Positions 10,747-34,331 of a stretch of DNA of 49,419 bases are shown here, one piece after another; position 1 is the stretch's first letter, and each line of letters begins with the position of its first letter. Origin of the DNA: Myxococcota bacterium (GTDB taxonomy: Bacteria; Myxococcota_C; UBA6777); the NCBI GenBank assembly GCA_023150835.1, contig JAKLKB010000034.1:1-49419 (forward strand). Reading direction: 5' to 3'. Both the position numbers and the translations under genes were made by a program. Below the pieces are notes generated by a model, which worked only from the letters and a program-made list of their open reading frames with translations, had not been told where the DNA came from and ran no database searches.

Positions 10747-11766
10747 CTATCGGCGAAATACGCCTTCCAAGATCCCGATAGCGCCTTCTTCGCAGACGCC
10801 GTGTCGATCGGCTCCCAGTTCCCACACCCATCCTTGGGCTGTTTTCTGGACGAGCTTATACGAAAAGCGCGTTCCTTCGGGCAACAAGATCGAGGCTTTC
10901 CACATCGGCCATGCCGACGGGTCCAACTCCACCCCCTGCGCTGGATCCCACTTCCCCATCTCTGGGCGGTCTCCCACCACAAACAGCCGATCTCCCGGAC
11001 GTGTCTGTGTATGCTCGAATTGGAATGTCACCACGCGCAACAACGTGGTTTGTTGCACGCGCTCGATCTGAACCAACGCAGCCGAAGACTCCGCCTTCAA
11101 CACTGAAACCTCCATCGAATCGGACGGCCACCGTGCCACTTCGCCCGATTCTCCGCCTGTTTCGATCATCTCCGCAAGATAAAAAGCGGGGTTAGTGCCT
11201 GAGTCCTTCGCTGTTTCGGTGTGGTTTGATGTAAGCTGGACGATCTGCGCCCACGCCGCATAAGTCCCCGACATCGTCTCTGCGACGGCCAAACCCTGAT
11301 CTGCCGAGGAAGCCTCGATCGCAGCGGTCTCCACAACAGGCGACTGTGCGGCCTCCACAACGGGCGGCTGTGCAGTCTCCACAACGGGCGACGGTACGGC
11401 CTCCACAACGGGCGACGGTACGGCCTCCACAACAGGCGACGGTACGGCCTCCACAACAGGCGGCTGTGCGGCCTCCACAACAAGCATTTCTGGGTCTGTG
11501 TGCGAGTGCGCTACACTCGCGGCTGTTTCTGGGGTATTTTCTGTGGTGGCCGAGTTGGTCGATGCGATGAGATCGGGCATTTGGGCGTCCGAAGCGAGAG
11601 ATTTTTGCACAGCCGCGATCAAAGCGCGGGCTTCTTCGAGAGGAAGAGATTCTTGCACAGAATAGAGCTTGTAGCCTTGTTGTTGGGCGTATTGGCGGAA
11701 TTCCTTAAAGGGCATGGAAAGTTGTTCGGCCATCTGGTGCGCACGCATCTTTTTGACTTTTGCCAT
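10747..11766 (-). CDS. IF2N-like + repeat linker + CBM20 starch-binding protein
   Basis: This encodes 339 aa. The ATG at 11766 follows GAGGAG at a normal distance; the longer frame only adds a membrane-like stretch without such a site. The N-terminus (MRAHQMAEQLSMPFKEFRQYA, then the LEEARAL segment) resembles the small IF2_N helical domain found before IF-2 and in other proteins. A linker of 8-residue VVEAVPSP-type repeats follows. The C-terminal ~100 residues match CBM20: LRVVTFQFEHTQTRPGDRL, VVGDRPEMGKWDP, W in the middle, RFSYKLV and WELGADR. I see no signal peptide, so it is probably cytoplasmic and may bind a glycogen-like polymer. The function of the pairing is unknown. Confidence 0.65.
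   Translation of the reverse strand: MAKVKKMRAHQMAEQLSMPFKEFRQYAQQQGYKLYSVQESLPLEEARALIAAVQKSLASDAQMPDLIASTNSATTENTPETAASVAHSHTDPEMLVVEAAQPPVVEAVPSPVVEAVPSPVVEAVPSPVVETAQPPVVEAAQSPVVETAAIEASSADQGLAVAETMSGTYAAWAQIVQLTSNHTETAKDSGTNPAFYLAEMIETGGESGEVARWPSDSMEVSVLKAESSAALVQIERVQQTTLLRVVTFQFEHTQTRPGDRLFVVGDRPEMGKWDPAQGVELDPSAWPMWKASILLPEGTRFSYKLVQKTAQGWVWELGADRHGVCEEGAIGILEGVFRR
11327..11470. repeat. 24-bp in-frame tandem repeat, six copies
   Basis: Six 24-bp units (from 11327, 11351, 11375, 11399, 11423 and 11447), plus a degenerate seventh, have the core CTCCACAACRGGCGRC on the plus strand. They encode the 8-residue VVEAVPSP / VVETAQPP linker of the overlapping CBM20 protein. The units keep frame and vary mainly at a few bases, so unit number could change without breaking the gene. 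Confidence 0.9.
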
Positions 11767-12015
11767 CGAGGGCTCCTCTTCGTCGTGGATTTGTTTGGAA
11801 AAAAGGATCGGCCCACAACGTAACGCAAGATCGATCAGAAAGCAAAAAATCAGCACAAACAAAACAGCCGCAACGATCCAGCGATCAACACGCTCCCAGA
11901 AGGCAGACGGAGAGGCTTGACCGAGACAGGCAGGGTTGCGTATAGTCCACGCTCACAAGTCTCCAAAGGACCGATAGATTCAACCTCTCAAGACGACAAG
12001 TCAAAGGATTGTTCG

Positions 12016-12325: not shown

Positions 12326-14662
12326 TCAGGGAGAGGACTTGCAAGCACCTGTGTAATCGACCGCAGCGCCTGCTACATCGGCTTCACAAGCATTGCCATA
12401 AGTCTTTCCATTGCAGCCACAGACAGGAGCATAAAGAGCGGGACAGGCTTGGGGGATGGTGGTGCAAACGCCCATGTTGTCGGCCACTTTGCAGGTGCCT
12501 GCGGGATATTTGCAGAACTCGCTTTTGCTTGTGCAGACGAAACCAGCGATCCCACCGCATTGTTTGGGGGTGCAAGCGATCTTGGTGCAAGCAACGGAAC
12601 CGTTGTAGCAGCTACAAGAGTTGCAGCCATCGCCCGCAGGGAAGGAAGCACCGTGAGGATACTTGACACCATTGTGCGCGCAAGCCGAAGCGATCTTGCA
12701 AGTAGCGCTGGCGCTATCGCAGATCTCGCCTTTGAGGCAATCTGCGTCGCTTTTGCAAGCGACTTTGCACTCGCCTTTGTACTGGACAGAAACGCCCACC
12801 GAAGCTGCGCTACAAGCGTTGCCATGGGTTTTTCCGTCACAACCGCATACGGGATCATATTGCATGGTGCAGGCTTGGGGCTTTTGCACACAAACGCCCG
12901 GGATATCGGTCCAGCCGCAATGCGAACCAAACTGGCAGAACTGACCTGTGGGGCAAGGCGACAGGCCACGGCTTCCACAGGCTTGGCAAGCGCGCAAGGT
13001 ACACATCACGCGGCCATTTTGGCAGCTACACGTGTTGCAACCATCGGTGGCAGGGAAGGATTCGCCGTCTTTGTATTCTTTGCCGTCGTACTTGCAGCTT
13101 AGACCTGTGGGCTTGCACTCGCCTTTGTAATCGACCGCAACACCGGCTGCATCGGCGACGCATTCGTTGCTATAGGTTTTGCCATCGCAACCACAGATGG
13201 GATCATACAGACGATTGCAGGCTTGGGGTTTGGGAGTGCAATAACCCATGTTGTCGGCGACTTTGCAGGTTCCAGCGGGATACTTACAGAAGTCAGCGGT
13301 GTTTTTGCAGACGAAGCCCGCGATGCCACCGCAAGGTTCTTTTGGAGGGCAAGCCATCTTGGTACAACCGACCACGCCATTTTGACAGAAGCACTTGTTG
13401 CAACCATCGGTAGCAGGGAAGGACTCGCCATCTTTGTATTCTTTGCCGTCGTATTTGCAGCTTGCGCCGTTCTTGCACTCGCCTTTGTAATCGATCGAAA
13501 CGCCCGCAGCATCGGCTTCACAATCGTTGCCGTAGGTTTTGCCGTTGCAACCGCATACGGGGTCGTATTGTTGGGTGCAGGCTTGGGGAGGAGTGGTGCA
13601 AACGCCCATGTTGTCGGCGACATTGCAAGTGCCGATCGCCATCTTGCAGAAGTCACCTTTGTTTTGGCAGGCGAAGCCAGCGATCCCACCGCATCGTTCG
13701 GGGGTAGGGCAAGCGCGTTTGGTGCAGTTGGGGACGCCGTTGGAGCCACAAGTGCAAGTATTGCAGCCGTCACCCGCAGGAAAGGTCTCGCCTTCTTTGT
13801 ACTCTTTGCCGTTGTATTTGCAGATCACACCGGTGCTTTTGCACTCGCCTTTGTAATCGACTGCGACGCCTGCGCTATCGGCAGCACATTCATTTCCGTA
13901 AGTTTTGCCGTTGCAACCGCATACGGGTTCGTATTGTTCGGTGCAGGCTTGGGGTTGGGGTTTGCAAACACCCATATTGTCTTTGATATTGCAGGTTCCA
14001 GCAGGATATTTGCAGAAGTCGCCTTTGTTTTTGCAAGCGATCCCTGCGATCCCACCGCATTTTTCTTCGACAGGGCAAGCCATGTCTGTACAAGACACTG
14101 CGCCATTTTTGCAGAAGCACTTGTTGCAACCATCGGTGGCGGGGAAGGATTCGCCGTCTTTGTACTCTTTGCCGTCGTACTTGCAGCTTGCGCCTGTGGT
14201 CTTGCACTCGCCTTTGTAATCGACCGAAACGCCCGCAGCTTCCGCGCCACAAGCATTTCCGTAAGTCTTGCCGTCGCAACCGCATACAGGATCGTATTGC
14301 GTGGTACAAGCTTGGGGTTTTGGAGTGCAAACGCCCATGTTGTCGGCCACTTTGCAGGTTCCATCGGCCATTTTGCAGAAGTCACCTTTGTTTTTGCAAG
14401 CGATGCCTGCGATCCCACCGCATTTTTCAGCGGGAGGGGGGACACAGGCTTTCAAGGTACAAGCGACTTGACCGTTTGTGCTACACGAACAGGAGTTGCA
14501 ACCGTCGGTCGAAGGGAAAGCATCGCCCGCGTTGTAAGTCTTGCCCCCGTAGGAACAGGTTTGCTGTTGGATCGGGCCACCACATCCGCCCTGTGCGCCC
14601 GTAAGCATCACAAAGCCGCCCATCATCAACGTCCAATAAAACAGATACCGTTTGAGATTCAT
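12326..14662 (-). CDS. secreted protein with six Kazal-like and six VWC-like modules
   Basis: This encodes 778 aa. The ATG at 14662 follows GGAGGA; the ATG five codons earlier has no such site. A hydrophobic signal (FYWTLMMGGFVMLTGAQGGC) leads to a possible but imperfect lipobox. The protein then repeats a three-part unit. The first part is a VWC/pacifastin-like module (C-x-Y-DGKEYKDGESFPATDGCN-x-C-x-C...C-T-x-x-AC). The second is a CGGIAG..C....FCK....C...DNMGVC segment. The third is a Kazal-like module (PQACTxQYDPVCGCDGKTYGN, then C...AGVSVDYKGEC). I count six of each. Kazal domains inhibit serine proteases in known members, so protease inhibition is plausible but unproven here. It lies 211 bp behind a related gene. 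Confidence 0.85.
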   Translation of the reverse strand: MNLKRYLFYWTLMMGGFVMLTGAQGGCGGPIQQQTCSYGGKTYNAGDAFPSTDGCNSCSCSTNGQVACTLKACVPPPAEKCGGIAGIACKNKGDFCKMADGTCKVADNMGVCTPKPQACTTQYDPVCGCDGKTYGNACGAEAAGVSVDYKGECKTTGASCKYDGKEYKDGESFPATDGCNKCFCKNGAVSCTDMACPVEEKCGGIAGIACKNKGDFCKYPAGTCNIKDNMGVCKPQPQACTEQYEPVCGCNGKTYGNECAADSAGVAVDYKGECKSTGVICKYNGKEYKEGETFPAGDGCNTCTCGSNGVPNCTKRACPTPERCGGIAGFACQNKGDFCKMAIGTCNVADNMGVCTTPPQACTQQYDPVCGCNGKTYGNDCEADAAGVSIDYKGECKNGASCKYDGKEYKDGESFPATDGCNKCFCQNGVVGCTKMACPPKEPCGGIAGFVCKNTADFCKYPAGTCKVADNMGYCTPKPQACNRLYDPICGCDGKTYSNECVADAAGVAVDYKGECKPTGLSCKYDGKEYKDGESFPATDGCNTCSCQNGRVMCTLRACQACGSRGLSPCPTGQFCQFGSHCGWTDIPGVCVQKPQACTMQYDPVCGCDGKTHGNACSAASVGVSVQYKGECKVACKSDADCLKGEICDSASATCKIASACAHNGVKYPHGASFPAGDGCNSCSCYNGSVACTKIACTPKQCGGIAGFVCTSKSEFCKYPAGTCKVADNMGVCTTIPQACPALYAPVCGCNGKTYGNACEADVAGAAVDYTGACKSSP

Positions 14663-14872
14663 ACGATTCCTCCACATTTGGGTCTTGCGAAGCGCACAAA
14701 GCCGTGTGTTTCAAAAAAAAGCACGTCCACGCTTTTTCTAAAACAAGGTCACGTCAGGCTTCGCGGTGAAAAATCAAACATTGCGATCATACCCTGATCG
14801 CCAAGCTGCGCGATCTTGTTGTTTGCATCGTTTCACGCAGCGCCTTCGATCTCTATCCATCTTTTTTTAGAA

Positions 14873-16390
14873 TTATTTGCAGGCCCCTGTGTAATCGACA
14901 GAGACGCCAGAAGCATCGGCCTCACAATCGTTTCCATAGGTCTTTCCATTGCAGCCGCAGACTTGCATGATTACGGTCAGGCAACTTTTGGGCTTTGGGG
15001 TACAAACGCCCATATTGTCGGCGACTTTGCAGGTGTTGGTGGGAAATTTACAAAAGGCGCTGGGATCACTACACATCAAGCCCGCGATCCCACCGCATTG
15101 TTCGGGGGTAGGGCAAGCGCGTTTGGTGCAGTTCGCAACCCCGTTGGAGCCGCAAGAGCAGGTATTACAGCCATCACCCGCAGGAAAGGATTCGCCTTCT
15201 TTGTACTCTTTGCCGTCGTATTTGCAGACGACAGCAACGGTCTTGCATTCGCCTTTGTAATCGACCGAAACACGAGCATTGTCGGCACCACAAGCATTTC
15301 CGTAAGTCTTGCCATCACAGCCACAAACAGGGTCGTATTGTTGAGTGCAGCCTTGGGGGGGAGTGGTGCAAACGCCCATGTTGTCGGAGACTTTGCAGGT
15401 GCCGATCGCCATTTTGCAAAATTCGCCTTTGTTTTTGCAAGCGATCCCTGCGATCCCACCGCATTGTTCGGGGGTGGGGCAAGCGATCTTGGTGCATCCG
15501 ATCACACCGCCTTTTTCGCATATACAAGTGTTGCATCCGTCCACAGCAGGGAAGGACGCTCCGATCTTGTAGCTCTTGCCGTTGTAAGAACACACCGTCA
15601 CAGGGCAGGCCCCCACAGAACGGATCGAGATCCCCGCTGCTGCGGCTTTACAAGCGCTTTCGTATTCTTGACCATCACAGCCACACACAGGCTCGACGAT
15701 CAACGTGCAGACCGAAGGTTTTGGCGCACAAGTCCCGGGTATATCGGTCGTTCCGCAATGGCTGTCTTGACGGCAAAACCAACCTTCAGGACAAGCAGGA
15801 AGACCACGCGATCCACACGAAGGACAGGCTTGGGTGGTGCAAGAGACCGTCCCCCCTGCAACGTCGGTACAAGTGCAGGTATTACAACCATCGCTTGCAA
15901 CAAACGTTTCGCCTTGTTTGTAGCGTTGCCCATTGTACTGACAGATCACAGGAGAGGTCTTGCACTCACCTTTGTAATCGACCGAGACACCCGCAGCATC
16001 GGCCCCACAAGCGTTTCCATAAGTCTTTCCATCGCAGCCGCACACAGGCGCGTACTCTTGTGTGCAGGCTTGCGGCTTGGTTGTGCAGGTACCTTGGTTG
16101 TCTTTTATGCTGCACGAGTTTTCGGCGTACTTGCAAAAATCGCCCAGCTTCTTGCAAGCGATCCCTGCGATCCCACCGCAGCGATCGCCGTTACAGACCA
16201 ACAGCGTGCAGGCGATCTTTCCGTCTTGGCTACACCCACACGTATTGCATCCGTCTTTTGCAGGAAAGCTCTTTCCAGCGAGATACACCTTGCCCTCATA
16301 AGAACAAGTCGCAGGCCACTCCCACGGATCAAAGACGCACGCCGAAGTCACCCACCACAAGCCACACCACAACAAGCCCCATCGACGCAT
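14873..16390 (-). CDS. lipoprotein with four Kazal-like and four VWC-like modules
   Basis: This encodes 505 aa. The short signal MRRWGLLWCGLWWVTSAC ends in a good lipobox, so it should be a lipoprotein. The same VWC-like / CGGIAG / Kazal-like unit as in the downstream gene occurs four times. The second CGG segment is the variant CGSRGLPACPEGWFC. Several units are almost identical to units of the neighbour, which points to duplication or recombination. A very strong ribosome-binding site (GAAGGAGG) lies 12 bp from the fecR stop, so it is very likely cotranscribed with the sigma/FecR pair. A role as surface protease inhibitor is inferred from the Kazal family only. Confidence 0.87.
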   Translation of the reverse strand: MRRWGLLWCGLWWVTSACVFDPWEWPATCSYEGKVYLAGKSFPAKDGCNTCGCSQDGKIACTLLVCNGDRCGGIAGIACKKLGDFCKYAENSCSIKDNQGTCTTKPQACTQEYAPVCGCDGKTYGNACGADAAGVSVDYKGECKTSPVICQYNGQRYKQGETFVASDGCNTCTCTDVAGGTVSCTTQACPSCGSRGLPACPEGWFCRQDSHCGTTDIPGTCAPKPSVCTLIVEPVCGCDGQEYESACKAAAAGISIRSVGACPVTVCSYNGKSYKIGASFPAVDGCNTCICEKGGVIGCTKIACPTPEQCGGIAGIACKNKGEFCKMAIGTCKVSDNMGVCTTPPQGCTQQYDPVCGCDGKTYGNACGADNARVSVDYKGECKTVAVVCKYDGKEYKEGESFPAGDGCNTCSCGSNGVANCTKRACPTPEQCGGIAGLMCSDPSAFCKFPTNTCKVADNMGVCTPKPKSCLTVIMQVCGCNGKTYGNDCEADASGVSVDYTGACK

Positions 16391-16402
16391 ACGCCCTCCT
16401 TC

Positions 16403-17692
16403 TTACCGAAGCCGCTTTTTCAAGGCCAAAAAGTGCGGATAATAGCTCTCTTTGGGCGAATGTGTTTGCAGATACGACGCGATCAACCTGCGCGCTTCTT
16501 GGCGCTCGATCGGGCCGCGCTGACTCAAGGCTTCCGTGAGCCAGTACAGGACTTGTTGTTTTTCCATCCCACGCTGCGCATAACGCTTGAGATAATGCCG
16601 ATACCACCGAACACACGGCGTCCCATCCAAAAAGATCGTACGACAAACTTGCATGGCGGAAAGCAAACTCAGTTCCGCAGCACCATCCGGCGGATTCATC
16701 CGATACTCGGCCAACAAGAGAGCGTACACTTGATGTCGATACATCTTGCCGTTGGGTTGTTTGGCGAGACGGCGCAACGAGGCTTGAGCGCGCCGAAACA
16801 AGGCATCTTTTGTACTGGCGGAGATACCGGGTTCTTCGGCACGATCCAGCACAAAAGAAAACAAGGCTTGGGGGGCATATTGGGCAAACCAATCGATCTT
16901 TTGTGCAGAAGAAGCCTCCACAGCAGGCAAGGGATAGCGTTGGATCTGACCTGAGGACAAGTCGATGCGCTGCCCTTGGCCCGCGCTCAAAAGGCCGAAA
17001 GATCGGGGACCTTGCTCGATCAGAACTTTTCCACGCACCACTTCAACGCGCACCCAATCGCGACGTTGCTCGACTGAAAAAACAGTACCACGCACCAAAA
17101 CACGCAGATCGCTTTGACAATGCACAGCAAAATGCTCCATGCTCTTTGGCGTGACGTGGATGTGGATGTGACCTTGTGCCATCTTGACTTCGGTGGAACG
17201 GTTGTTTTGGCGCAAGAGATGGAGTCGGGTTTGTTGTTTTGCTTGCAAACGCCAGCGATGGCCTTGGCGGACGCTTCCTTCGGCGTCTTGGGTGTGCAGG
17301 TGTTGCTCTGAAACGGCCTGTGCAGCGGTGCTTTCTTGGGCGGCCCTCTTTTGCGTAGAAGAGGGCTGTTTGCTTGGTTGGCTTGGCGAGGCGTCTTGGT
17401 TCCATTGCCCTGCAAAACGCAGCGGAACCAGCGCTTCTTGTGTCGAAGCACTCCACCACACAAGCAGGGCCACAAAGCACGAAGCCATCGCGCCCATCGT
17501 GCCCATCGCCCAACTCGACGCACGGCGACGGGGCAATGTTCCAACGACCTTTGGAAACGCAGCCATGAGTTCGCGCTCGACTTCGCGCAAGATCACCTGT
17601 TCTTCGGGCGTAGTCTGCTCCCAAGGAATCAGCCGCTGCTCCAAAGAAACCGTATTCCCGTATGTTCCTTGCGCTGCTTTCGGATGATTCAT
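16403..17692 (-). CDS. FecR-domain membrane protein, probable anti-sigma regulator
   Basis: This encodes 429 aa. The start is fixed by an ATGA overlap with the sigma gene (ATG 17692-17690, TGA 17691-17689), which implies translational coupling. A short cytoplasmic N-terminus of about 60 residues is followed by one membrane helix (MGAMASCFVALLVWW). A Gln/Ser-rich linker leads to a FecR-like beta domain around residues 150-260, with GHIHIHVTPKS, DLRVLVRGTVFSVEQ, VRVEVVRGKVLIEQ and GLLSAGQGQRI. The last ~170 residues are helical with no motif I recognise. In known systems FecR-type proteins hold an ECF sigma factor until an envelope signal arrives. No TonB receptor is nearby. Confidence 0.82.
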   Translation of the reverse strand: MNHPKAAQGTYGNTVSLEQRLIPWEQTTPEEQVILREVERELMAAFPKVVGTLPRRRASSWAMGTMGAMASCFVALLVWWSASTQEALVPLRFAGQWNQDASPSQPSKQPSSTQKRAAQESTAAQAVSEQHLHTQDAEGSVRQGHRWRLQAKQQTRLHLLRQNNRSTEVKMAQGHIHIHVTPKSMEHFAVHCQSDLRVLVRGTVFSVEQRRDWVRVEVVRGKVLIEQGPRSFGLLSAGQGQRIDLSSGQIQRYPLPAVEASSAQKIDWFAQYAPQALFSFVLDRAEEPGISASTKDALFRRAQASLRRLAKQPNGKMYRHQVYALLLAEYRMNPPDGAAELSLLSAMQVCRTIFLDGTPCVRWYRHYLKRYAQRGMEKQQVLYWLTEALSQRGPIERQEARRLIASYLQTHSPKESYYPHFLALKKRLR

Positions 17693-18423
17693 CGCAGCCA
17701 CTCCTCTACAGACAAGCCCAAACGCTTGCACTCGCGCACAAGACGCTCTCGCAGTTCTTGGCGCGCCCGATGCAATCGCGACGCAACCGTTCCCACCGAG
17801 ATCCCCAGTTCTTCCGCCGCTTCTTCGATCTTTCGACCTTCGAGATCGCACAACAACACCACCACTCGCTTGTCTGCTCCCAAACGCCCCAATACCTCAT
17901 GCACCAACTGCCGAAGTTCCTCTCGCAAAAAGATCTGCTCATGCAAAGCCTCGGAAGATCCGCCACCTTCCTCACCATCAGGCCAAAAACGCTCCACAAA
18001 CGAGCGCCATGTTTGTTGGCGACGAAAGCGATCGCGCATCATGTTCGTTGCGATGCGGTTGAGCCACGCATGAAGCAGACCATTTCCTTGGTAACGACCA
18101 AGGTGTTGAAGACTCTGCAAGAAAAATTGTTGAAGACTATCGCGTGCGGCGTCTTCGTCATTGGTCCAACGCAAGAAACGCCGATAGAAATAAGGGGAGT
18201 AATGTCGATACATCTCGCGAAAGGCCCTTTGATCGCCCGCCAAGATCCGCTGCACAAGAGCAAGATCTTGTTCGATCTGTTGTTGTACGGAAGAAGCATC
18301 TTGCGAAAGAAAGGGAGCGGGTGTAGTCATCGATTCATCGGTGCGACCAAGAGGTAAAGCAGAACACACGAGTGTTTGCACACTATCGCATCCTTTTCGC
18401 TCTGCTGACAACCCTTGCTCCAT
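17689..18423 (-). CDS. ECF-family RNA polymerase sigma factor
   Basis: This encodes up to 244 aa. Sigma region 2 is clear: LVQRILAGDQRAFREMYRHY, YRRFLRWTNDEDAARDSLQQ and LHAWLNRIATNMMRDRFRR. Region 4 is at the C-terminus, with the helix-turn-helix AAEELGISVGTVASRLHRA. I took the ATG at 18423 because it follows GAGG at 7 nt; an ATG at 18330 would give a shorter protein of more usual ECF length but lacks such a site. It overlaps the FecR gene by 4 nt. Targets are unknown, but the Kazal lipoprotein gene is downstream in the same unit. Confidence 0.92.
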   Translation of the reverse strand: MEQGLSAERKGCDSVQTLVCSALPLGRTDESMTTPAPFLSQDASSVQQQIEQDLALVQRILAGDQRAFREMYRHYSPYFYRRFLRWTNDEDAARDSLQQFFLQSLQHLGRYQGNGLLHAWLNRIATNMMRDRFRRQQTWRSFVERFWPDGEEGGGSSEALHEQIFLREELRQLVHEVLGRLGADKRVVVLLCDLEGRKIEEAAEELGISVGTVASRLHRARQELRERLVRECKRLGLSVEEWLR

Positions 18424-18474: not shown

Positions 18475-18502
18475 CTTGACGCACCAAGCCAAAAGTTTTT
18501 CC
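18475..18502 (-). promoter_or_regulatory. candidate ECF-type promoter upstream of the sigma gene
   Basis: On the minus strand, GGAAAAAC (18502-18495) is followed after a normal interval by CGTCAAG (18481-18475). This resembles the ECF/sigma-E pattern GGAAC - N16 - CGTC. It lies about 50 bp before the first possible start of the sigma gene, which would fit autoregulation. The match is imperfect (GGAAA, not GGAAC) and only one site supports it. Confidence 0.3.
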
Positions 18503-18540
18503 AAAAAATCACCCTTCCACAGGAATTGCACAATTGGATG

Positions 18541-18612
18541 GCTTTTGTGGGGTTTTACCCCATACCCCACAAGGGAGCGCAGCTCCCTTGACCCTGTATC
18601 GTATCACCCCGG
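18541..18612 (+). repeat. dispersed repeat module B (partial copy)
   Basis: This is the palindrome TGTGGGGTTTTACCCCATA followed by CCCCACAAGGGAG, then CTCCCTTGACCCTGTATCG. It matches module B at 1719-1765 and, inverted, 26440-26500. The 227-bp spacer between the sigma gene and the downstream outer-membrane-like gene otherwise holds only the candidate promoter. Confidence 0.75.
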
Positions 18613-18650: not shown

Positions 18651-20069
18651 TTAAAAAGTGAACCATGCTCCCAGCCCCACGGGCATCTGTACAAGATGCG
18701 GTGCGTCGGTGCTGCCCTCTGTTGGAGAGAAACCAAACGGCGGCAGATAATGCACCGAAAGATCCAGCGACAACGTGAACCATGACGCCAATTCAAGCCG
18801 CAGCCTCGCCCCCAACGCAAAGCCCCACCCCGACACCAGCGCATATTTCTGCTCTCCGCGATCCACCACCTGAAAATCCATGACCGCCCCTGCCGATATC
18901 TCGACTCGCAAAGGATACGCACCAAGCTTCCACGGCAACAACGGCGACCAACCCAACAAAAACGACGGACGAAATAGCCCGATACTCCGCCCCATCTGCA
19001 ACGTATAAAGATGCGAGCGCAGCCCCACATACAGCGTCCAATCCCCCAACCCCACCCCAAAAAACACAGGCCCCCCAAAATCCGCACGTTGAAACCCCGT
19101 CACCAAAACCTCTGGCACCAACCCCACAGCCACATGAAACCACCGACGTTTCGAGGCCAACGAACGGCTCTGCATCAACGAACCTCGCGGATTGACCGGC
19201 ACAACAGGCAGCAACAACACCGCAAGTTTTTTTTCTCTCGGAGGCTTCGTTGGTTTCGGAGGCTTCGTTATGATCAGGGCTTTTGTTGTATTCGATGTGC
19301 TCGATGTGTTCGATGTGTTCGATGTGTTCGGTGTGTTCGAGGTATTCGGTGTGTTCGATGTGTTCGATGTGTTCGATGTGTTCGATGTGTTCGATGTGTT
19401 CGGTGTGTTCGGTGTGTTCGGTGTGTTCGGTGTGTTCGGTGTGTTCGGTGTATTCGGTGTATTCGGTGTGTTCGGTGTGTTCGATGTATTCGATGTATTC
19501 GGTGTGTTCGGTGTGTTCGATGTGTTCGATGTATTCGGTGTGTTCGGTATACTCGGAGTATTGCGTTGGGGTGGGTTGGATTGAGGAGACGAGGGGTTGG
19601 GATGGGTAGCCAAGCGCTTTCTAGTGATTCGTCGGTTCGTCCGATGTTTTAGGATTTTTCGAGCGCGTATTGGAGGTACAAAGATCACCGATGACGAGGG
19701 CAAAACAAACTGTGCTTGCACAGAAGAAGGTGACGGCTTTTGCTCGATCCAGTCTGCAAAAAGCTCCAGATACACCACCATTGCTCTGGCCCGAACGGTC
19801 GGGGTTTTTAGTTTAGATGGAAGATGAAAAGATCGTATCCATCGACCTTTTTGGATCAAGACGGTGTTGATATCTTGGAGGTGGAGTGTGGTGAGATGAG
19901 GCGTCTGTGTTCGACGAGCAAGGAGCGTATAACCTTCCAACATCAAGAGATGACGGAGTTTTTTGTACTCGCCGCTTTTTTTGTAAGACTCAGGGACATG
20001 CAAGAACACAGGCCGAAGGACAGCAGAGGGGAAACAAAAAAGGCAATACAAAAGCCACAAACAAGGCAT
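18651..20069 (-). CDS. outer-membrane-like protein with Asn-Thr-Pro/Ser repeat linker
   Basis: This encodes 472 aa. A hydrophobic start (LWLLYCLFCFPSAVL) is a probable signal peptide, though no strong ribosome-binding site supports the ATG at 20069. Residues 20-150 form a basic, mixed domain that I do not recognise. Next comes a linker of about 30 NTP/NTS triplets encoded by a 9-bp microsatellite. The C-terminal ~190 residues alternate polar and hydrophobic residues with many Gly and aromatic residues (for example FHVAVGLVPEVLVTGFQ and WGFALGARLRLELA). The protein ends in Phe (GLGAWFTF), typical of an outer-membrane beta-barrel. Function unknown. Repeat-number change would keep frame and alter linker length. 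Confidence 0.65.
   Translation of the reverse strand: MPCLWLLYCLFCFPSAVLRPVFLHVPESYKKSGEYKKLRHLLMLEGYTLLARRTQTPHLTTLHLQDINTVLIQKGRWIRSFHLPSKLKTPTVRARAMVVYLELFADWIEQKPSPSSVQAQFVLPSSSVIFVPPIRARKILKHRTNRRITRKRLATHPNPSSPQSNPPQRNTPSIPNTPNTSNTSNTPNTPNTSNTSNTPNTPNTPNTPNTPNTPNTPNTPNTPNTSNTSNTSNTSNTSNTPNTSNTPNTSNTSNTSSTSNTTKALIITKPPKPTKPPREKKLAVLLLPVVPVNPRGSLMQSRSLASKRRWFHVAVGLVPEVLVTGFQRADFGGPVFFGVGLGDWTLYVGLRSHLYTLQMGRSIGLFRPSFLLGWSPLLPWKLGAYPLRVEISAGAVMDFQVVDRGEQKYALVSGWGFALGARLRLELASWFTLSLDLSVHYLPPFGFSPTEGSTDAPHLVQMPVGLGAWFTF
19289..19557. repeat. 9-bp microsatellite, about 29-30 copies
   Basis: On the plus strand the array reads as GTGTTCGAT / GTGTTCGGT units, with occasional GTATTC variants. 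All are 9 bp, so all six frames remain open through it. The minus strand gives Asn-Thr-Pro and Asn-Thr-Ser triplets inside the outer-membrane-like protein. The copies differ by transitions in two positions and are grouped, which suggests recent expansions of sub-blocks. Confidence 0.92.
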
Positions 20070-20231: not shown

Positions 20232-20654
20232 TCAGCGGCACAACATCTTGGTGCAGCCGACGTTGCCATTCAAACAGCGGCAGGTATTGCACTTGTCGCG
20301 GAAGCTGCTTCCGTGTGGATAGCGGCGGCCTTTGTAAAAGCAACCTTTGGGCTTGCACGCCATCTTGGTGCAAGCCACAGCACCGTTAAAGCAGCGACAA
20401 GTGTTGCATTGATCGCGAAACGAAGCGTTGTGGGCGTAAGTGCGGCCTTTATAATAGCACTTCTTCATCACGGGTCGACAGATGGCCACATAGCAGCAGC
20501 CTTTTTTGACTTGGCCGACTTTGATCTGTCCTGCGGGGCAGGTCGGAGCGGCACATCGCACAAGGCGACAGTCGATGGCTTGGGCTTCTTGTGTCATCAC
20601 AAAAAGCGCCAAAAAGGCAAAAGATGCAGCAACAAGAATTTTCAATTGTTTCAT
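20232..20654 (-). CDS. small secreted protein with two VWC-like modules
   Basis: This encodes 140 aa. The ATG at 20654 follows GGAGG. A classical signal peptide (MKQLKILVAASFAFLALFVM) ends at QEAQA. After a CxxC-rich segment (CAAPTCPAGQIKVGQ, KKGCCYVAIC) come two modules of the same VWC-like type as in the Kazal proteins. They read CYYKGRTYAHNASFRDQCN and CFYKGRRYPHGSSFRDKCN, each followed by CRC..G.V.CTKM.C. No Kazal domain is present. It is the third gene in this stretch with this module, separated from the other two by the sigma/FecR and barrel genes. Confidence 0.82.
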   Translation of the reverse strand: MKQLKILVAASFAFLALFVMTQEAQAIDCRLVRCAAPTCPAGQIKVGQVKKGCCYVAICRPVMKKCYYKGRTYAHNASFRDQCNTCRCFNGAVACTKMACKPKGCFYKGRRYPHGSSFRDKCNTCRCLNGNVGCTKMLCR

Positions 20655-26520: not shown

Positions 26521-28578
26521 TCAGAGTTGTTCGACAAGGCGGAAGACAGCGCGGCGCAACGAAGGGGCAAGAGGGCGGAGGATCTGCCAAGCAAAAGAGC
26601 GTTGAAGAGGTGCAAGAGCATCCAGCCAGATCAAGCGCCAGACAGGGAGGGTGTGCAAACAAAGCGTGCTTTTCTGGGGAAGGAGAGGGGCAGTTTCGTT
26701 GTAAGGGCGAGCGTTTTTGTCGAGCAACAAGTGGTAGCGAAGTTCTTGTCCGTCATCTGTGCTGCGAGAACCGATCTCAAAGGCTTTTGCGTAAGCAAGC
26801 ATCGGAAATTGTGCGAGTTGCTTTTTGGAAAGAAAGCAACGCAACAAAAAAGCGAGACGAGCGTGAGAAACGTGTGCGTTGCGCCAAACTTCTTCTTGAA
26901 ACAAGCTGTCCGAAGGAAAAGCATCTCGTTGTGGGGGAGTGGTGGCTCGCTGTTCTTGTGCGATCCATGTGCCGAGTAGACGGGGGCTATTGGAAAGAAA
27001 CCAACGTCCCGCATCCCAAGCGAGCGCAAGTGGTGGGTGTTTATCCGGCCACCAGAGGCGGAGCGGCCACGCATCTTGCATTGGAAGCCCCGAACCCAAG
27101 GGGGCTTCGACGATATCTTTCAGTTCATGAAGGATATCTTTCCATAATTCGCGCTGCCACGCATCCCACTGACCAGCCAATAAAATGCCGTGCGGCGCAA
27201 GTCCACCAGAAGCCGATGGATCGGTTTGTTTTGCAGGTGTCTCCGTTTTGGGAGGCGGCTCCAACCACAAGATGCGTCGGCCTTTTGTGAGCCAGCGCAA
27301 AAGATGCGCAGCCGTGTCTTGTTGCCACAACCACCCTCCTCCCACAAGCAGCCCGCGCCGCAAAAGAACCGTCCCAAGAGCCTTGTGCAGTGAGGAGTAC
27401 AGGGCTTTTTCAAGCGGCATACGTTGCAACAACGGCCACCAGATCGGATCGTCTTCTGAAGATGAAGACGGCGCTCTGTTGGATGTTTCGGGTATTTTTT
27501 TGCGGATGGATTTCAACATCTCGGCGGAGAATTGGGCCAGTAGGGCTGCAAGGGTCGTGGAAGGCCGAGCCTGCCCTTGGAGGGAAACAAAGAGGGTGTC
27601 CTGCGGAAACAATGTTCCAAGCTGCGAGAGTTCTTGTTTGGAGGGGAGGGATTGTGCCTTTTGCGCCTGAAGAGTCGCCGCATCGGGCAACACGACTTCT
27701 TGAAATTGCACGCGGTCGATGCCAAGAAAAAGAGCCGCCAAGAGCGCCCGATACCGCTGGAGTTGCAAACGCAACATCTCCCATGTGGGGCGTTTTTGAA
27801 AAATGCCCCACAAAGGCTCTTTCATCCACGCCGCAAACGTCGGTGGATGCAGGAAAAAAGCGATCTGGGCGTTGGTTTGTACGCGATCTTCGAGCCACAA
27901 TCGGCCTTGTAGAGCAGTGCTAGAAGAGACTTGATCGAGCAAAGGGCGTATCACGGACGACCACAACATCTGCCGAGTTTGCGGAGCAAAAACAGCCGAA
28001 CGATGGGGCAGCGGACACAAAACAAGACCACCACCATACAAGACCAAGACCCATGCAGGCCCTTGGTGGCCCAACAGCCAAAAAGAGACCGTCCCACCGT
28101 AGTTTTCCTCAAAAAATTGCAAGCTCTCACGAGAAGCAGAAAAAGCGCGTCGAAGCGTAAATCGCGTAAAGAAGGACGTTTGCACAGGCAACGAGATCGC
28201 CAGACGCAGACGCTTTAACGGCTCAAGCAGCGCACCTTCGGGCAATTGGACAGCATCAAGGGGAGCCGAAAAAGGCTGTTTTGCAAGCACAACGGTCACG
28301 GTAAAACCACGCTGCCACCGTACGCCCAACATCCGCGCAACGTTGCCATCAAGATAACCGATCGCCCGTTCGATGCGTCGTATCGGTACACCTCGGAGGA
28401 TACGACGCTGCGAGAGTTGCTTGAGCAAAGACACCAGCGAATCCAGTCGACGCACCTGCACTTGTGCAAAGATCCCTTCGGCGGATCGGTCGGCAGCTTG
28501 GGCGTATCCTTGCACCGCCCACAACCACAGACTCAAACCAACCACACCACCATGCCCAAACCACCGACGCCAAGACAT
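26521..28578 (-). CDS. large secreted protein of unknown function
   Basis: This encodes 685 aa. The ATG at 28578 (GAGG at 8 nt) opens a signal peptide (WFGHGGVVGLSLWLWAVQGYAQA). The mature protein has no cysteine clusters and no catalytic motif I can name. It reads like a large two- or three-domain alpha/beta periplasmic protein with several LxxLLxQLS and WLLGHQGPAWVLVLYGG type strands. It resembles, only loosely, the DUF3352-type proteins. It is the third gene of a minus-strand group behind the AMIN-like and macroglobulin-like genes. The longer frame upstream of 28578 is repeat-derived. Confidence 0.7.
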   Translation of the reverse strand: MSWRRWFGHGGVVGLSLWLWAVQGYAQAADRSAEGIFAQVQVRRLDSLVSLLKQLSQRRILRGVPIRRIERAIGYLDGNVARMLGVRWQRGFTVTVVLAKQPFSAPLDAVQLPEGALLEPLKRLRLAISLPVQTSFFTRFTLRRAFSASRESLQFFEENYGGTVSFWLLGHQGPAWVLVLYGGGLVLCPLPHRSAVFAPQTRQMLWSSVIRPLLDQVSSSTALQGRLWLEDRVQTNAQIAFFLHPPTFAAWMKEPLWGIFQKRPTWEMLRLQLQRYRALLAALFLGIDRVQFQEVVLPDAATLQAQKAQSLPSKQELSQLGTLFPQDTLFVSLQGQARPSTTLAALLAQFSAEMLKSIRKKIPETSNRAPSSSSEDDPIWWPLLQRMPLEKALYSSLHKALGTVLLRRGLLVGGGWLWQQDTAAHLLRWLTKGRRILWLEPPPKTETPAKQTDPSASGGLAPHGILLAGQWDAWQRELWKDILHELKDIVEAPLGSGLPMQDAWPLRLWWPDKHPPLALAWDAGRWFLSNSPRLLGTWIAQEQRATTPPQRDAFPSDSLFQEEVWRNAHVSHARLAFLLRCFLSKKQLAQFPMLAYAKAFEIGSRSTDDGQELRYHLLLDKNARPYNETAPLLPQKSTLCLHTLPVWRLIWLDALAPLQRSFAWQILRPLAPSLRRAVFRLVEQL

Positions 28579-28593
28579 CCTCAAAACCTCGTG

Positions 28594-28718
28594 TTGTGTG
28601 TTGTGGGGAGTGGGACAACGCCCGACACATCTCTCCAACAAGTCGCTCCTGACCGAGTTTACGGCGACGGGTGTGACGAGAACAATCACCACGCCCGACG
28701 CCTCTCTCCAACAAGTCG
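28594..28718 (-). repeat. dispersed repeat fragment with internal direct repeat
   Basis: The 148-bp gap between the macroglobulin-like gene and the next gene contains TTGTGGGGAGTGGGACAACG, related to the repeat palindrome. It also holds two copies of CTCTCCAACAAGTCGC about 73 bp apart, each preceded by CGCCCGAC. A related CTATCCAACAAGCCAC occurs at the edge of the copy near 26500. Confidence 0.6.
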
Positions 28719-28726
28719 CAGCGGTC

Positions 28727-31700
28727 TCAACCAAAGAGCTTCCGACGGAAACCGCCCATCCAAGGGGTTGTTTTGCGACGACGGCTTCCGGGCGGCCAAA
28801 CCGTGATCAAACGATGGAACAACGCAGCCCCACGTTCGGGCTGCATCGTATTGATCAGCCGCACGCCCCAATGTTGGCCGCCGATCTCACCGTTGGGTTG
28901 AAGCGTTGCTTTTGCCGCAAGCAACGATACTTCGAGGCGACTCTTTCCATCGAACGGCAGCCGAAGGCACGATTGATCGACGGCAGCCTCCAAACCCACC
29001 AACGCAGGCGGCAGATACACTTCCAAGATATCCCCCGCAACGGGGCCTTGGGGCAAAGAAACCACCATCGTCAAACGAGCGCCTTGATCGACTTCGTAGG
29101 CTTCCTCGCGCAAACCGCCTTGTACCACGAGGAGTTGTACTTCCCACGTCGCCTCGCGCAAAAACTCCTTGAGGGAGATCTCTACGGTACGTTGCGCCAC
29201 CAAAGAAGCCGCTCCTTTGAGGATCTTGAGCGTATCGACGACTTGATCGATCGGGATCTCGGTGCCGTCGCAGATCTGCTGATTGACCTCCAAAGCGCTC
29301 TCTTCGGCAGACGGCCACCAACGCGCCAGACTATCGAGAACGCTCAACAAAGCGGCGTTATCGCGCATCGAAGCAAAGGAAAAATCCGATTGAAGATCGC
29401 GTGTGAGAACATTCACGATCTGCAAGCCGCGCATCTGATGGGACTTTTCGCTACTTGCCAAAAGCAAAGCTCCTGCAAACGCCGTCTCGACGCGGTTCAA
29501 GATGCGTCCTTGCTCGTCTGCAAAGATCGCTGGCTGTTCCCCAAGACGCTTTTCGATCTCCCACAAGGCTTCTTGGCGGCGGATCGGAGAAGAATCGAGC
29601 GAAAAGACACGAAAAGCATCGCGACATCCGCGCATTCGATTCGGCAAGGCTTCCATCTGTAAGCTGCGCGCCGCCTTGTCCACAAGCGCCTGCACATCGT
29701 CTCGCCAAGGCCCTCCGCCACTCCACAACAGCGTTTCCCACAACAACAACACGGCTTCTTCAGCCAATGCCGGAATAATCGGGCCTTTGGGTTGCGACAA
29801 AAAGCCGCGTTCGGGCTGATAAAGCTGCCTCAACCGAGCAAAACTCTCCAACGCGGATTGTTGGGCTTTTTGCGCGACGCTCGCCTCTTCGGAGCGCAAC
29901 GCCAACCAAGCCGCAGCGCGCAAACGTGCGGCCTCTTCGGCGCACGTTCCCGAGGGTTGCGCAAGCATGACTTCGCACACTTGGTTGAGCATCCATCTCG
30001 GCCCAAGGAAAGGATAGACTTCTTGAATTCCTGCATCCCTTCGAGAAAAAGAAGCACCTTCAGGCATCCACAAGAGGCTTTTTCGGGTCGTTCGCTGTTG
30101 CGCCCAAGGCAAGATCTCGGCCTCGACAGTATCGAGGATATCACCGTTTGCGTCCGCAAGAGAAGCGCGATAGCGCCCGGGTTTTCCGACAAATTGCAGA
30201 GAATGAGACGGCCCTCGCAAGGTTGCAGCCCCTGCGATCTCACGCCCATCACGCCACAAAGAGGCTTCTTGATCGTCTCGCCACAGCGCAACATGCACCT
30301 CGGATTGATCGGTCATCACGACCAGATCGCACGCGATACTATCGTCGTGATGCGCCATCACAGGCACGCTGATCTCGACAAAACTCGGCATCTGCACATC
30401 CACGAGCCGATGCGCATAGCGCCAAGAAAGGCCGTCCAAACGCAAGGCTTCGATGCGATAGCGCGCTTGTGTATCGCCGACGGGGATCTCCAACAGGGCC
30501 TTCCCTTGGACGGGTACGAGTCCCGCGTACAACAACGATCCGAAATGCTCGGCACTTGGCTGAGGTGGCCGCCAGCCATCGGGAAAAGGCGCGGGTTCTT
30601 CCTCTTCTTCGTTGCTTTGCGCGCCTCGCTTTTGCCCAAGGACTTGCAACAACGCCTCTTCTTGCCAACCAAGGCGCATCCCCTGAAGAACTTCGGCCAG
30701 ACAACCCTTGAGACTTTCTGCCGGTCCCCACGGTGTTTGTTCTTCTTCTTCCTCGATCACGCGCAAAAACACGGGCACCAACGCATCTTCCGTCGTCTCG
30801 ATCTGGATACGTAAGGTCTCGTCGGGATGCAGCGCGTCGGGTGCTTGAAGACGCAAAGGACGCGGTTCTACCGCCACCATCGTCGCCCATCCTTCCCACG
30901 GCTTGCCCTCCAAAAATCCGCCCACGCACACGACTCCAAGCGGCGATGGGATCGACAACGTCACAGGATCGTCAGGATCGAGCGCCTCCCAAGTGTGGGT
31001 CGTTGCGCTCCCTCGGGCGGGATCAAGGATCACCACCATCACTTGTTCGAGCGGCTGCAAGACTTGCAGCATCACCTGATCGGTCGCCACCGATTCCAAC
31101 AAGATCGGGCTTTCCTCTTCTTCGGGTAGATAGGCCGATTCAAAACCAAGCCCGGGATCGGCCTCCCCACCATCCCAACGCCAGATCTGCATCATCCCCA
31201 ACGGATTGATCACAAACGGCTTTTCAGCCTCGCCCTCTTTGGGCTTGGACAACGACAAAAAGCACCGCCGCTCTGGCTCGGCGATCGATTGAAACTCCAA
31301 CGAAAACGGCCCGTCACCAAGCAACGGAAGCTCCCCCGCGACCCGCCCGCCTCCATCCGCACGAAAGATATTCCCTGTCATCGGCCTTGCGGGTTCCTGC
31401 CCTTCGTCGATCAAGTTCACGCCGACTTCGCCCTGAAACGGCGCGCCAAACGCCTCCAACTTTGCAACAAACACCAACAGCGTCCCTTTCTGCGTAGTGG
31501 GCTGCTTGTAATGTTGCACCAGCGTTCCAGTCAAAAGCTCCACCCGAGGCCGTGCCACCACAAATGTCGCACGCGGTCCTTCCGCCCCCAAACGTAGCTG
31601 ATACTCGCCTGCTGGGATCCCTTGTAACGCTGTCAGTCCGATCCCAAAAGCGTCGATGGATACGGGTTGTTCGCCGATCTTGCGTCCCGCCTCCAACAAA

Positions 31701-32104
31701 CGCAGCGTGATCTCTTTTCCTTGCGCCATCGGATCAAAGATCACCACGCGCACCGTATCCCGATGTTCGAGATAACGCGGTCGATCCGTCCACAACGAAG
31801 CAAGCCCCCGACGTGGGATCTGCCTTCGCTGCACGCGCACCCCCGGCAACGTCAGCGCCCCGTGACCCCACATCGAAAAGATCCGTGGCCCCACAGGCTG
31901 CTCGATCCCTGCCGCCCCTAGCACCGATGCGATCGTCGGTGATTCATCCCATCCTCCGCGCAAAAAAGCGAAGCTATGGCCCAAAACAAGGTCTTGTCCT
32001 AACTCTCCCACCAACGCCACCCCGCCCGCCATATAATGAAAAGAGGGCTGCTTTCGCGACCAAGCCTCATGATAGATCAAACCTTTTCCTTGCGTATGCG
32101 CCAT
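28727..32104 (-). CDS. alpha-2-macroglobulin-like protein with degenerate thioester motif
   Basis: This encodes 1125 aa. The ATG at 32104 has GAGGAG at 8 nt. An MG2-type domain is visible near the N-terminus (SLWTDRPRYLEHRDTVRVV). More beta-sandwich domains follow, including FVEISVPVMAHHDDSIACDL. Next comes an all-helical segment like the thioester domain, with MLAQPSGTC721AEEAARLR and LYQPERGFLSQPKG, and a C-terminal beta domain. In true macroglobulins the site is C-x-E-Q; here it is C-A-E-E, so a Cys-Gln thioester should not form. No signal peptide or lipobox is visible, which is odd for this family. It is flanked by secreted-protein genes in the same direction. Confidence 0.72.
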   Translation of the reverse strand: MAHTQGKGLIYHEAWSRKQPSFHYMAGGVALVGELGQDLVLGHSFAFLRGGWDESPTIASVLGAAGIEQPVGPRIFSMWGHGALTLPGVRVQRRQIPRRGLASLWTDRPRYLEHRDTVRVVIFDPMAQGKEITLRLLEAGRKIGEQPVSIDAFGIGLTALQGIPAGEYQLRLGAEGPRATFVVARPRVELLTGTLVQHYKQPTTQKGTLLVFVAKLEAFGAPFQGEVGVNLIDEGQEPARPMTGNIFRADGGGRVAGELPLLGDGPFSLEFQSIAEPERRCFLSLSKPKEGEAEKPFVINPLGMMQIWRWDGGEADPGLGFESAYLPEEEESPILLESVATDQVMLQVLQPLEQVMVVILDPARGSATTHTWEALDPDDPVTLSIPSPLGVVCVGGFLEGKPWEGWATMVAVEPRPLRLQAPDALHPDETLRIQIETTEDALVPVFLRVIEEEEEQTPWGPAESLKGCLAEVLQGMRLGWQEEALLQVLGQKRGAQSNEEEEEPAPFPDGWRPPQPSAEHFGSLLYAGLVPVQGKALLEIPVGDTQARYRIEALRLDGLSWRYAHRLVDVQMPSFVEISVPVMAHHDDSIACDLVVMTDQSEVHVALWRDDQEASLWRDGREIAGAATLRGPSHSLQFVGKPGRYRASLADANGDILDTVEAEILPWAQQRTTRKSLLWMPEGASFSRRDAGIQEVYPFLGPRWMLNQVCEVMLAQPSGTCAEEAARLRAAAWLALRSEEASVAQKAQQSALESFARLRQLYQPERGFLSQPKGPIIPALAEEAVLLLWETLLWSGGGPWRDDVQALVDKAARSLQMEALPNRMRGCRDAFRVFSLDSSPIRRQEALWEIEKRLGEQPAIFADEQGRILNRVETAFAGALLLASSEKSHQMRGLQIVNVLTRDLQSDFSFASMRDNAALLSVLDSLARWWPSAEESALEVNQQICDGTEIPIDQVVDTLKILKGAASLVAQRTVEISLKEFLREATWEVQLLVVQGGLREEAYEVDQGARLTMVVSLPQGPVAGDILEVYLPPALVGLEAAVDQSCLRLPFDGKSRLEVSLLAAKATLQPNGEIGGQHWGVRLINTMQPERGAALFHRLITVWPPGSRRRKTTPWMGGFRRKLFG

Positions 32105-32169
32105 CTCCGCAACTCCTCCACACCGTCCGCATCGTGTTGTGATCAAACTAGCCCATCACGCAACAAACT

Positions 32170-34227: not shown

Positions 34228-34331
34228 TTTATCGCGTCCTTGTGCTGTCGTACGCATACAGAATGTGCAGGCTCTCAAAATAAATTTGCTCAAAGGCTTG
34301 AAACATCCGAACAAACAGCCGAACGATCCGG

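Follow-up and report, generated by a model that had tools for sequence, protein, structure and literature searches.

Most descriptions of FecR-type signalling centre on siderophore receptors. At the locus studied here, an ECF sigma–FecR pair is followed by genes for proteins made of Kazal modules, which raises the question of what partner such a pair could have at the outer membrane, and what place the Kazal proteins take in the system. The window, a stretch of 49,419 nucleotides, makes up contig C188 in a draft genome of 7.56 Mb. The lineage stands apart: its phylum group consists of five genomes in three genera (G000 to G004), and one of the five, G001, is a congener. The relatives were submitted as MAGs under the names Myxococcota (KLAP109), Deltaproteobacteria (M3003, NP119) and Myxococcales (S139). 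Based on comparisons within this group, we conclude that the Kazal locus is one copy of a paralogous four-part cassette, in which sigma and FecR are paired with a protein modelled as an OmpA-like barrel and not with the usual TonB iron receptor.

The genes of the locus described below, the leader and the candidate promoter lie on the minus strand. The sigma gene (17689..18423, 244 aa) and fecR (16403..17692, 429 aa) overlap by ATGA, with the fecR ATG at 17692 and its stop at 16403. The lipoprotein gene that we call Kazal1 (14873..16390, 505 aa) is coupled to fecR, starting at 16390, 12 nt past the fecR stop and behind the ribosome-binding site AAGAAGGAGG. Both the overlap of 18423-17689 with 17692-16403 and the short spacing with a strong ribosome-binding site had been claimed in the initial annotation, and both are borne out. 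The unit extends upstream beyond the sigma gene, to a gene for a 472-aa protein, U (18651..20069), and further to a gene for a small secreted VWC-like protein (20232..20654; Pfam VWC, 3.8e-13). Kazal2 (12326..14662) closes the series, and G001 has its genes in the same succession (VWC gene, U, sigma, FecR, Kazal1, Kazal2); the conserved sigma/FecR/Kazal order that had been proposed as something to look for in relatives is thus found in the congener. The spacer between U and sigma holds, in the Kazal copy, a dispersed repeat (18536-18596; hairpin GGGAGC...GCTCCC / GTGGGGT...ACCCCAC) that occurs in at least 40 copies genome-wide, so that U and sigma need not be one transcript. Elsewhere in the window, a gene beside the Kazal genes (10747-11862) encodes a protein that has a starch-binding CBM20 domain at its C-terminus as well as a repetitive stretch rich in Pro, Val and Glu, and three consecutive large proteins (737, 1139 and 714 aa; 26521-34314, minus strand) have no Pfam match at 1e-5.

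The sigma protein matches Sigma70_r2 (1e-8) and Sigma70_r4_2 (5.5e-16) in Pfam, scores above the cut-off of TIGR02937 and has region 2 and region 4 only, as is the case for ECF sigma factors. It is 98% identical to its counterpart in the congener and 31-44% identical to the sigmas of other cassettes. FecR matches Pfam FecR (2.2e-10) and shows the cytoplasmic N-terminus, single membrane helix and periplasmic beta domain of such regulators. Its AlphaFold model consists of a short cytoplasmic helix, the membrane helix (66-83), the beta domain (128-254) and a TPR-like helical domain (262-428). By fold comparison, the juxtamembrane beta domain is of the PupR/BDI_1681 type (PupR 6ovk: Z 18.2, rmsd 2.4 over 134 residues), and the C-terminal part gives helical-repeat matches, for example to BamD (Z 11.9). 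This TPR-like domain, which carries the invariant Cys 350 and Cys 360, is modelled where PupR has an STN subdomain (PMC7186176), and Pfam at E 0.01 reports FecR alone. STN is not among the fold matches to the FecR and U models, lists that leave room for a remote relation.

Upstream of the sigma gene, a candidate ECF-type promoter with a GGAA...CGTC pattern, GGAAAAACTTTTGGCTTGGTGCGTC (18478..18502), is kept in the congener. We regard this call as tentative because the pattern was not found consistently at other cassettes, and a sigma promoter common to the cassettes was rejected on the same ground. No similarity beyond that of shuffled sequences links the blocks ahead of sigma, U and the two genes of the Kazal region.

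U is predicted to be an outer-membrane barrel with a periplasmic domain. Its AlphaFold model, built with 11 homologues, places after the signal peptide a periplasmic beta-alpha-beta4-alpha domain (residues 18-110), a disordered linker (111-307) and a C-terminal 8-strand barrel (308-472); the N-domain and the barrel are confident, and the linker has a pLDDT below 50. The modelled barrel resembles OmpA, NspA and OprF (Z about 17), and the N-domain resembles LptE/RlpB (2r76: Z 10.8; 87 residues aligned at rmsd 1.9 and 10% identity), with no Pfam match. We describe the modelled N-domain as LptE in fold only and make no claim of LPS transport, since this fold is common to proteins of different function and does not itself show function. 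The linker, of about 190 residues, is rich in Asn, Pro, Thr and Ser, and much of it (Asn-Thr/Ser-Pro) is encoded by a 29-copy 9-bp tandem repeat at 19287-19548. In the congener (L026), the U reading frame breaks in two just beyond the tandem-repeat region, through genuine variation or through a fault of the assembly. The U N-domain was found in none of 285 genomes of other groups, the five lineage genomes serving as positive control, and in none of 235 Myxococcota, in a search that had no internal control.

A FecR search of the five genomes returned 16 full-length family members and one truncated copy. U lies beside sigma-FecR in 14 of the 15 family loci whose flank is present, counted over the five genomes; C441 was left out of this score, its flank being cut by the contig end. 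An independent profile search with the U N-domain finds the same places as the FecR search. U is usually upstream of sigma-FecR, the order at one locus (L030) is U-FecR-sigma, and a family FecR on C70 has a sigma and a lipoprotein gene without U. Comparison thus shows U, ECF sigma, FecR and a lipoprotein gene to be a recurring block. Two U homologues (L086, G000:C131; L087, G001:C341) have no sigma or FecR nearby.

No TonB transducer was seen in the neighbourhoods of the FecR loci. In the five genomes, the 66 TonB plug domains and the 23 FecR-domain loci are always on different contigs, a comparison that the fragmented assemblies limit a little, and we therefore reject a TonB transducer as the FecR partner. 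Instead of a TonB-dependent transducer with a plug and a 22-strand barrel, the neighbour is predicted to be an 8-stranded barrel without a plug. The earlier statement that no receptor is present overlooks U, the conserved neighbour with a predicted barrel and periplasmic domain, and is not supported.

Kazal1 has a lipobox, VTSA-C, after a hydrophobic stretch, and is accordingly classed as a lipoprotein. Its mature N-terminus, C-VFDPWEW, is followed by four VWC / CGGIAG-type / Kazal triads; on the translation, VWC/pacifastin-like, CGGIAG/CGSRG-type and Kazal units occur four times each, in keeping with the four Kazal-like and four VWC-like modules first noticed and with Pfam (Kazal_1, 2.7e-16; Pacifastin_I, 5.9e-14). 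The Kazal cysteine pattern is present, Kazal_1 and Kazal_2 both being above cut-off. In 14 of the 16 family FecR loci, the start of a lipoprotein gene lies between -16 and +15 nt relative to the stop before it (this stop is that of fecR, except at L030, where it is that of sigma; at L031 the start overlapping fecR was read from the ORF). The two loci without an immediate lipoprotein are C94 and C24. Spacing had suggested that sigma, FecR and lipoprotein form one unit, and the recurrence of this arrangement agrees with it. In most cassette lipoproteins a hydrophobic-x-hydrophobic-Asp-Pro motif follows the lipid cysteine (VFDPWEW in Kazal1; VEFDPSW, VQLDPEW, FEFDKQW, VIDPQQLF, IELDPQT and VEMDQVW at other cassettes). 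The pattern, which was written after inspecting this small sample of sequences, matches no other lipoprotein predicted within the same cassette-locus DNA, its sole extra hit being the FecR membrane helix at L039. What follows the motif varies by copy: Kazal/VWC modules, Cys-rich modules of other kinds, domains rich in beta structure, or short tails of low complexity. Given the constant position and the differing cargo, Kazal1 is the positional equivalent of the standard cassette lipoprotein, with Kazal cargo.

Kazal2 has six VWC / CGGIAG-type / Kazal triads on its translation (Pfam Kazal_1, 3.8e-31; VWC, 1.5e-10). The six-unit homologue is as first described, and the gap to Kazal1 becomes 210 nt instead of 211 bp when counted from 14662, a start with a better ribosome-binding site. 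Kazal2 is exported, and its expected lipid site, AQGG-C, is outside the usual lipobox pattern. The label of lipoprotein, originally given to both Kazal proteins, is for this reason established for Kazal1 and not for Kazal2, which may be secreted instead. The intergenic leader of Kazal2 (14663..14872) is identical to that of the congener in 200 of 210 columns, including a 122-bp identical run, whereas four-fold sites have changed by 15-20% (17/116 in sigma, 40/196 in FecR); it is thus far more conserved than neutral sites. It folds into two hairpins and a terminator-like A-stem-U hairpin, the last kept in the congener despite base changes, and the gap has no Rfam match. Judging from its sequence, it probably serves as a leader under regulation or combines a terminator with a promoter. 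The fecR operon thus likely ends near the Kazal1-Kazal2 gap, and Kazal2 is probably a separately regulated unit. A sigma-FecR unit running into both Kazal genes, as initially envisaged, would accordingly hold for Kazal1 by its spacing and probably not for Kazal2.

Considering these results, we find support for surface signalling in which the sigma operon includes the lipoprotein gene. The best-supported account, which we think somewhat probable, gives U the part of a receptor or co-receptor and FecR that of a switch across the membrane, while the sigma operon with its lipoprotein would be the output or a part of it; the signalling steps are all inferred. This account is favoured by the recurrence of the block and of the lipoprotein position, the N-terminal motif, the predicted structures of U and FecR, the separation from TonB plug domains and the like arrangement in other Myxococcota. 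The lack of a sigma promoter common to the cassettes, the C70 FecR without U, the U homologues without FecR, the functional diversity of LptE-like folds, the repeat between U and sigma and the motif's having been defined after inspection count against it. A surface or envelope cue would act on the barrel and/or the lipoprotein, and the LptE-like domain of U, tethered by a linker that could be long enough to cross the periplasm, would contact the beta/TPR region of FecR. FecR would then be processed and sigma released to transcribe its own operon, and transcription of sigma-fecR would also make the lipoprotein. In the Kazal copy, activation would cover the cell surface with modules of a protease-inhibitor-like or adhesive kind, these being carried on the lipoprotein, and Kazal2 would likely be controlled separately. 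In its more specific form, which we put forward tentatively, this would be TonB-independent FecR signalling, where an OmpA-type barrel with an LptE-like domain and an exchangeable surface lipoprotein replace the TonB transducer, and FecR reads the signal with its TPR-like domain, not with STN.

The coupled lipoprotein may alternatively be the sensor and not, or not only, the output. Its N-terminus would then dock on the U barrel, and the Kazal/VWC part would be an exchangeable ligand- or protease-binding head reporting to FecR. This would fit a lipoprotein that is near-constant in the cassettes and keeps its N-terminal motif while the rest changes, and it has a precedent in RcsF, which forms sensory complexes with outer-membrane barrels (PMC4942254); C94 and C24, having no immediate lipoprotein, speak against it, and we consider it unlikely.

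The model first proposed for this DNA, a circuit that senses envelope stress or proteases and is dedicated to making protease inhibitors for the cell surface, appears to us quite improbable. It could draw on the coupling of fecR to Kazal1, on the order kept in the congener and on the P1 residues of the ten Kazal units, which, read by eye, differ from unit to unit (Q, L, Q, T; T, E, Q, R, M, A), as they do among inhibitors with different specificities. The other cassette copies, however, bear other modules, the Kazal genes of G002-G004 are elsewhere than at FecR loci, and the further Kazal proteins of the same genome (C139, C169, C115) have no sigma or FecR nearby. This distribution makes the Kazal-to-sigma/FecR link genus-specific (two species), as far as these five genomes show, and does not sustain protease sensing as the task of the cassette. 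An accidental position of Kazal1 downstream of sigma-fecR, with the order preserved owing to a recent split of the congeners, is very unlikely: Kazal cargo is found at the locus in only two species, with 98% identical sigma proteins, but a lipoprotein stands at the equivalent position in 14 of 16 copies and the 12-nt gap holds a perfect SD.

Outside the lineage, Minicystis rosea and several Myxococcota MAG loci (L100-L106) have a sigma gene, a FecR with a helical C-terminus, and then an exported protein with an N-domain, a linker and a barrel-like part, the helical and barrel labels being read from sequence. There the U-like gene is downstream of fecR, whereas in the lineage cassette U is usually upstream. 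We do not claim homology of the N-domains: the hhalign score of 9.1 is within the range of shuffled columns (median 8.0, maximum 12.7). Comparison over the whole length aligned only the barrels (E 1.3e-4, probability 53%). Since N-domain homology was tested and not found, we take these loci as a parallel in arrangement only. Two of them continue with RCC1-repeat lipoproteins (L101:7159-9252, L106:6116-8788).

A literature search, many subscription papers being outside it, found no paper describing such a sigma/FecR/barrel/lipoprotein cassette. A repeated cassette in which sigma and FecR are retained, with another receptor and an additional, exchangeable lipoprotein, would demonstrate how one inner-membrane switch can be wired to other surface cues. 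Its Kazal version would connect a FecR-type switch with inhibitor modules of animal-like type at the surface of a bacterium. Concrete domains for binding tests are offered by U 18-110, FecR 128-428 and the lipoprotein N-terminus.

Among known systems, RcsF with OmpA/OmpC/BamA is similar, by analogy only, in pairing a lipoprotein with an outer-membrane barrel as a sensor, whereas it signals to the Rcs phosphorelay and no sequence relation to the cassette is shown (PMC4942254). Surface signalling of the same logic is known from PupB/PupR (PMC7186176) and VreA/VreR (PMC2729926). FecI/FecR/FecA and PupI/PupR/PupB share with the cassette an ECF sigma gene followed by fecR, a FecR with one membrane helix and a PupR-type beta domain, and, as partner, an outer-membrane barrel with an N-terminal periplasmic domain. 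In contrast to them, the cassette barrel is predicted to be 8-stranded, OmpA-type and plugless, a lipoprotein follows, the N-domain is LptE-like in fold and not shown to be STN, and FecR is modelled with a TPR-like domain at the end where PupR has STN. PUMA3 of Pseudomonas aeruginosa (VreA/VreI/VreR) likewise carries out FecR-type signalling without a 22-strand TonB receptor and regulates surface or secreted products, not iron uptake; VreA, however, combines an STN-like with a TolA/TonB-like domain and has no barrel (PMC2729926), whereas the partner in the cassette is predicted to have one.
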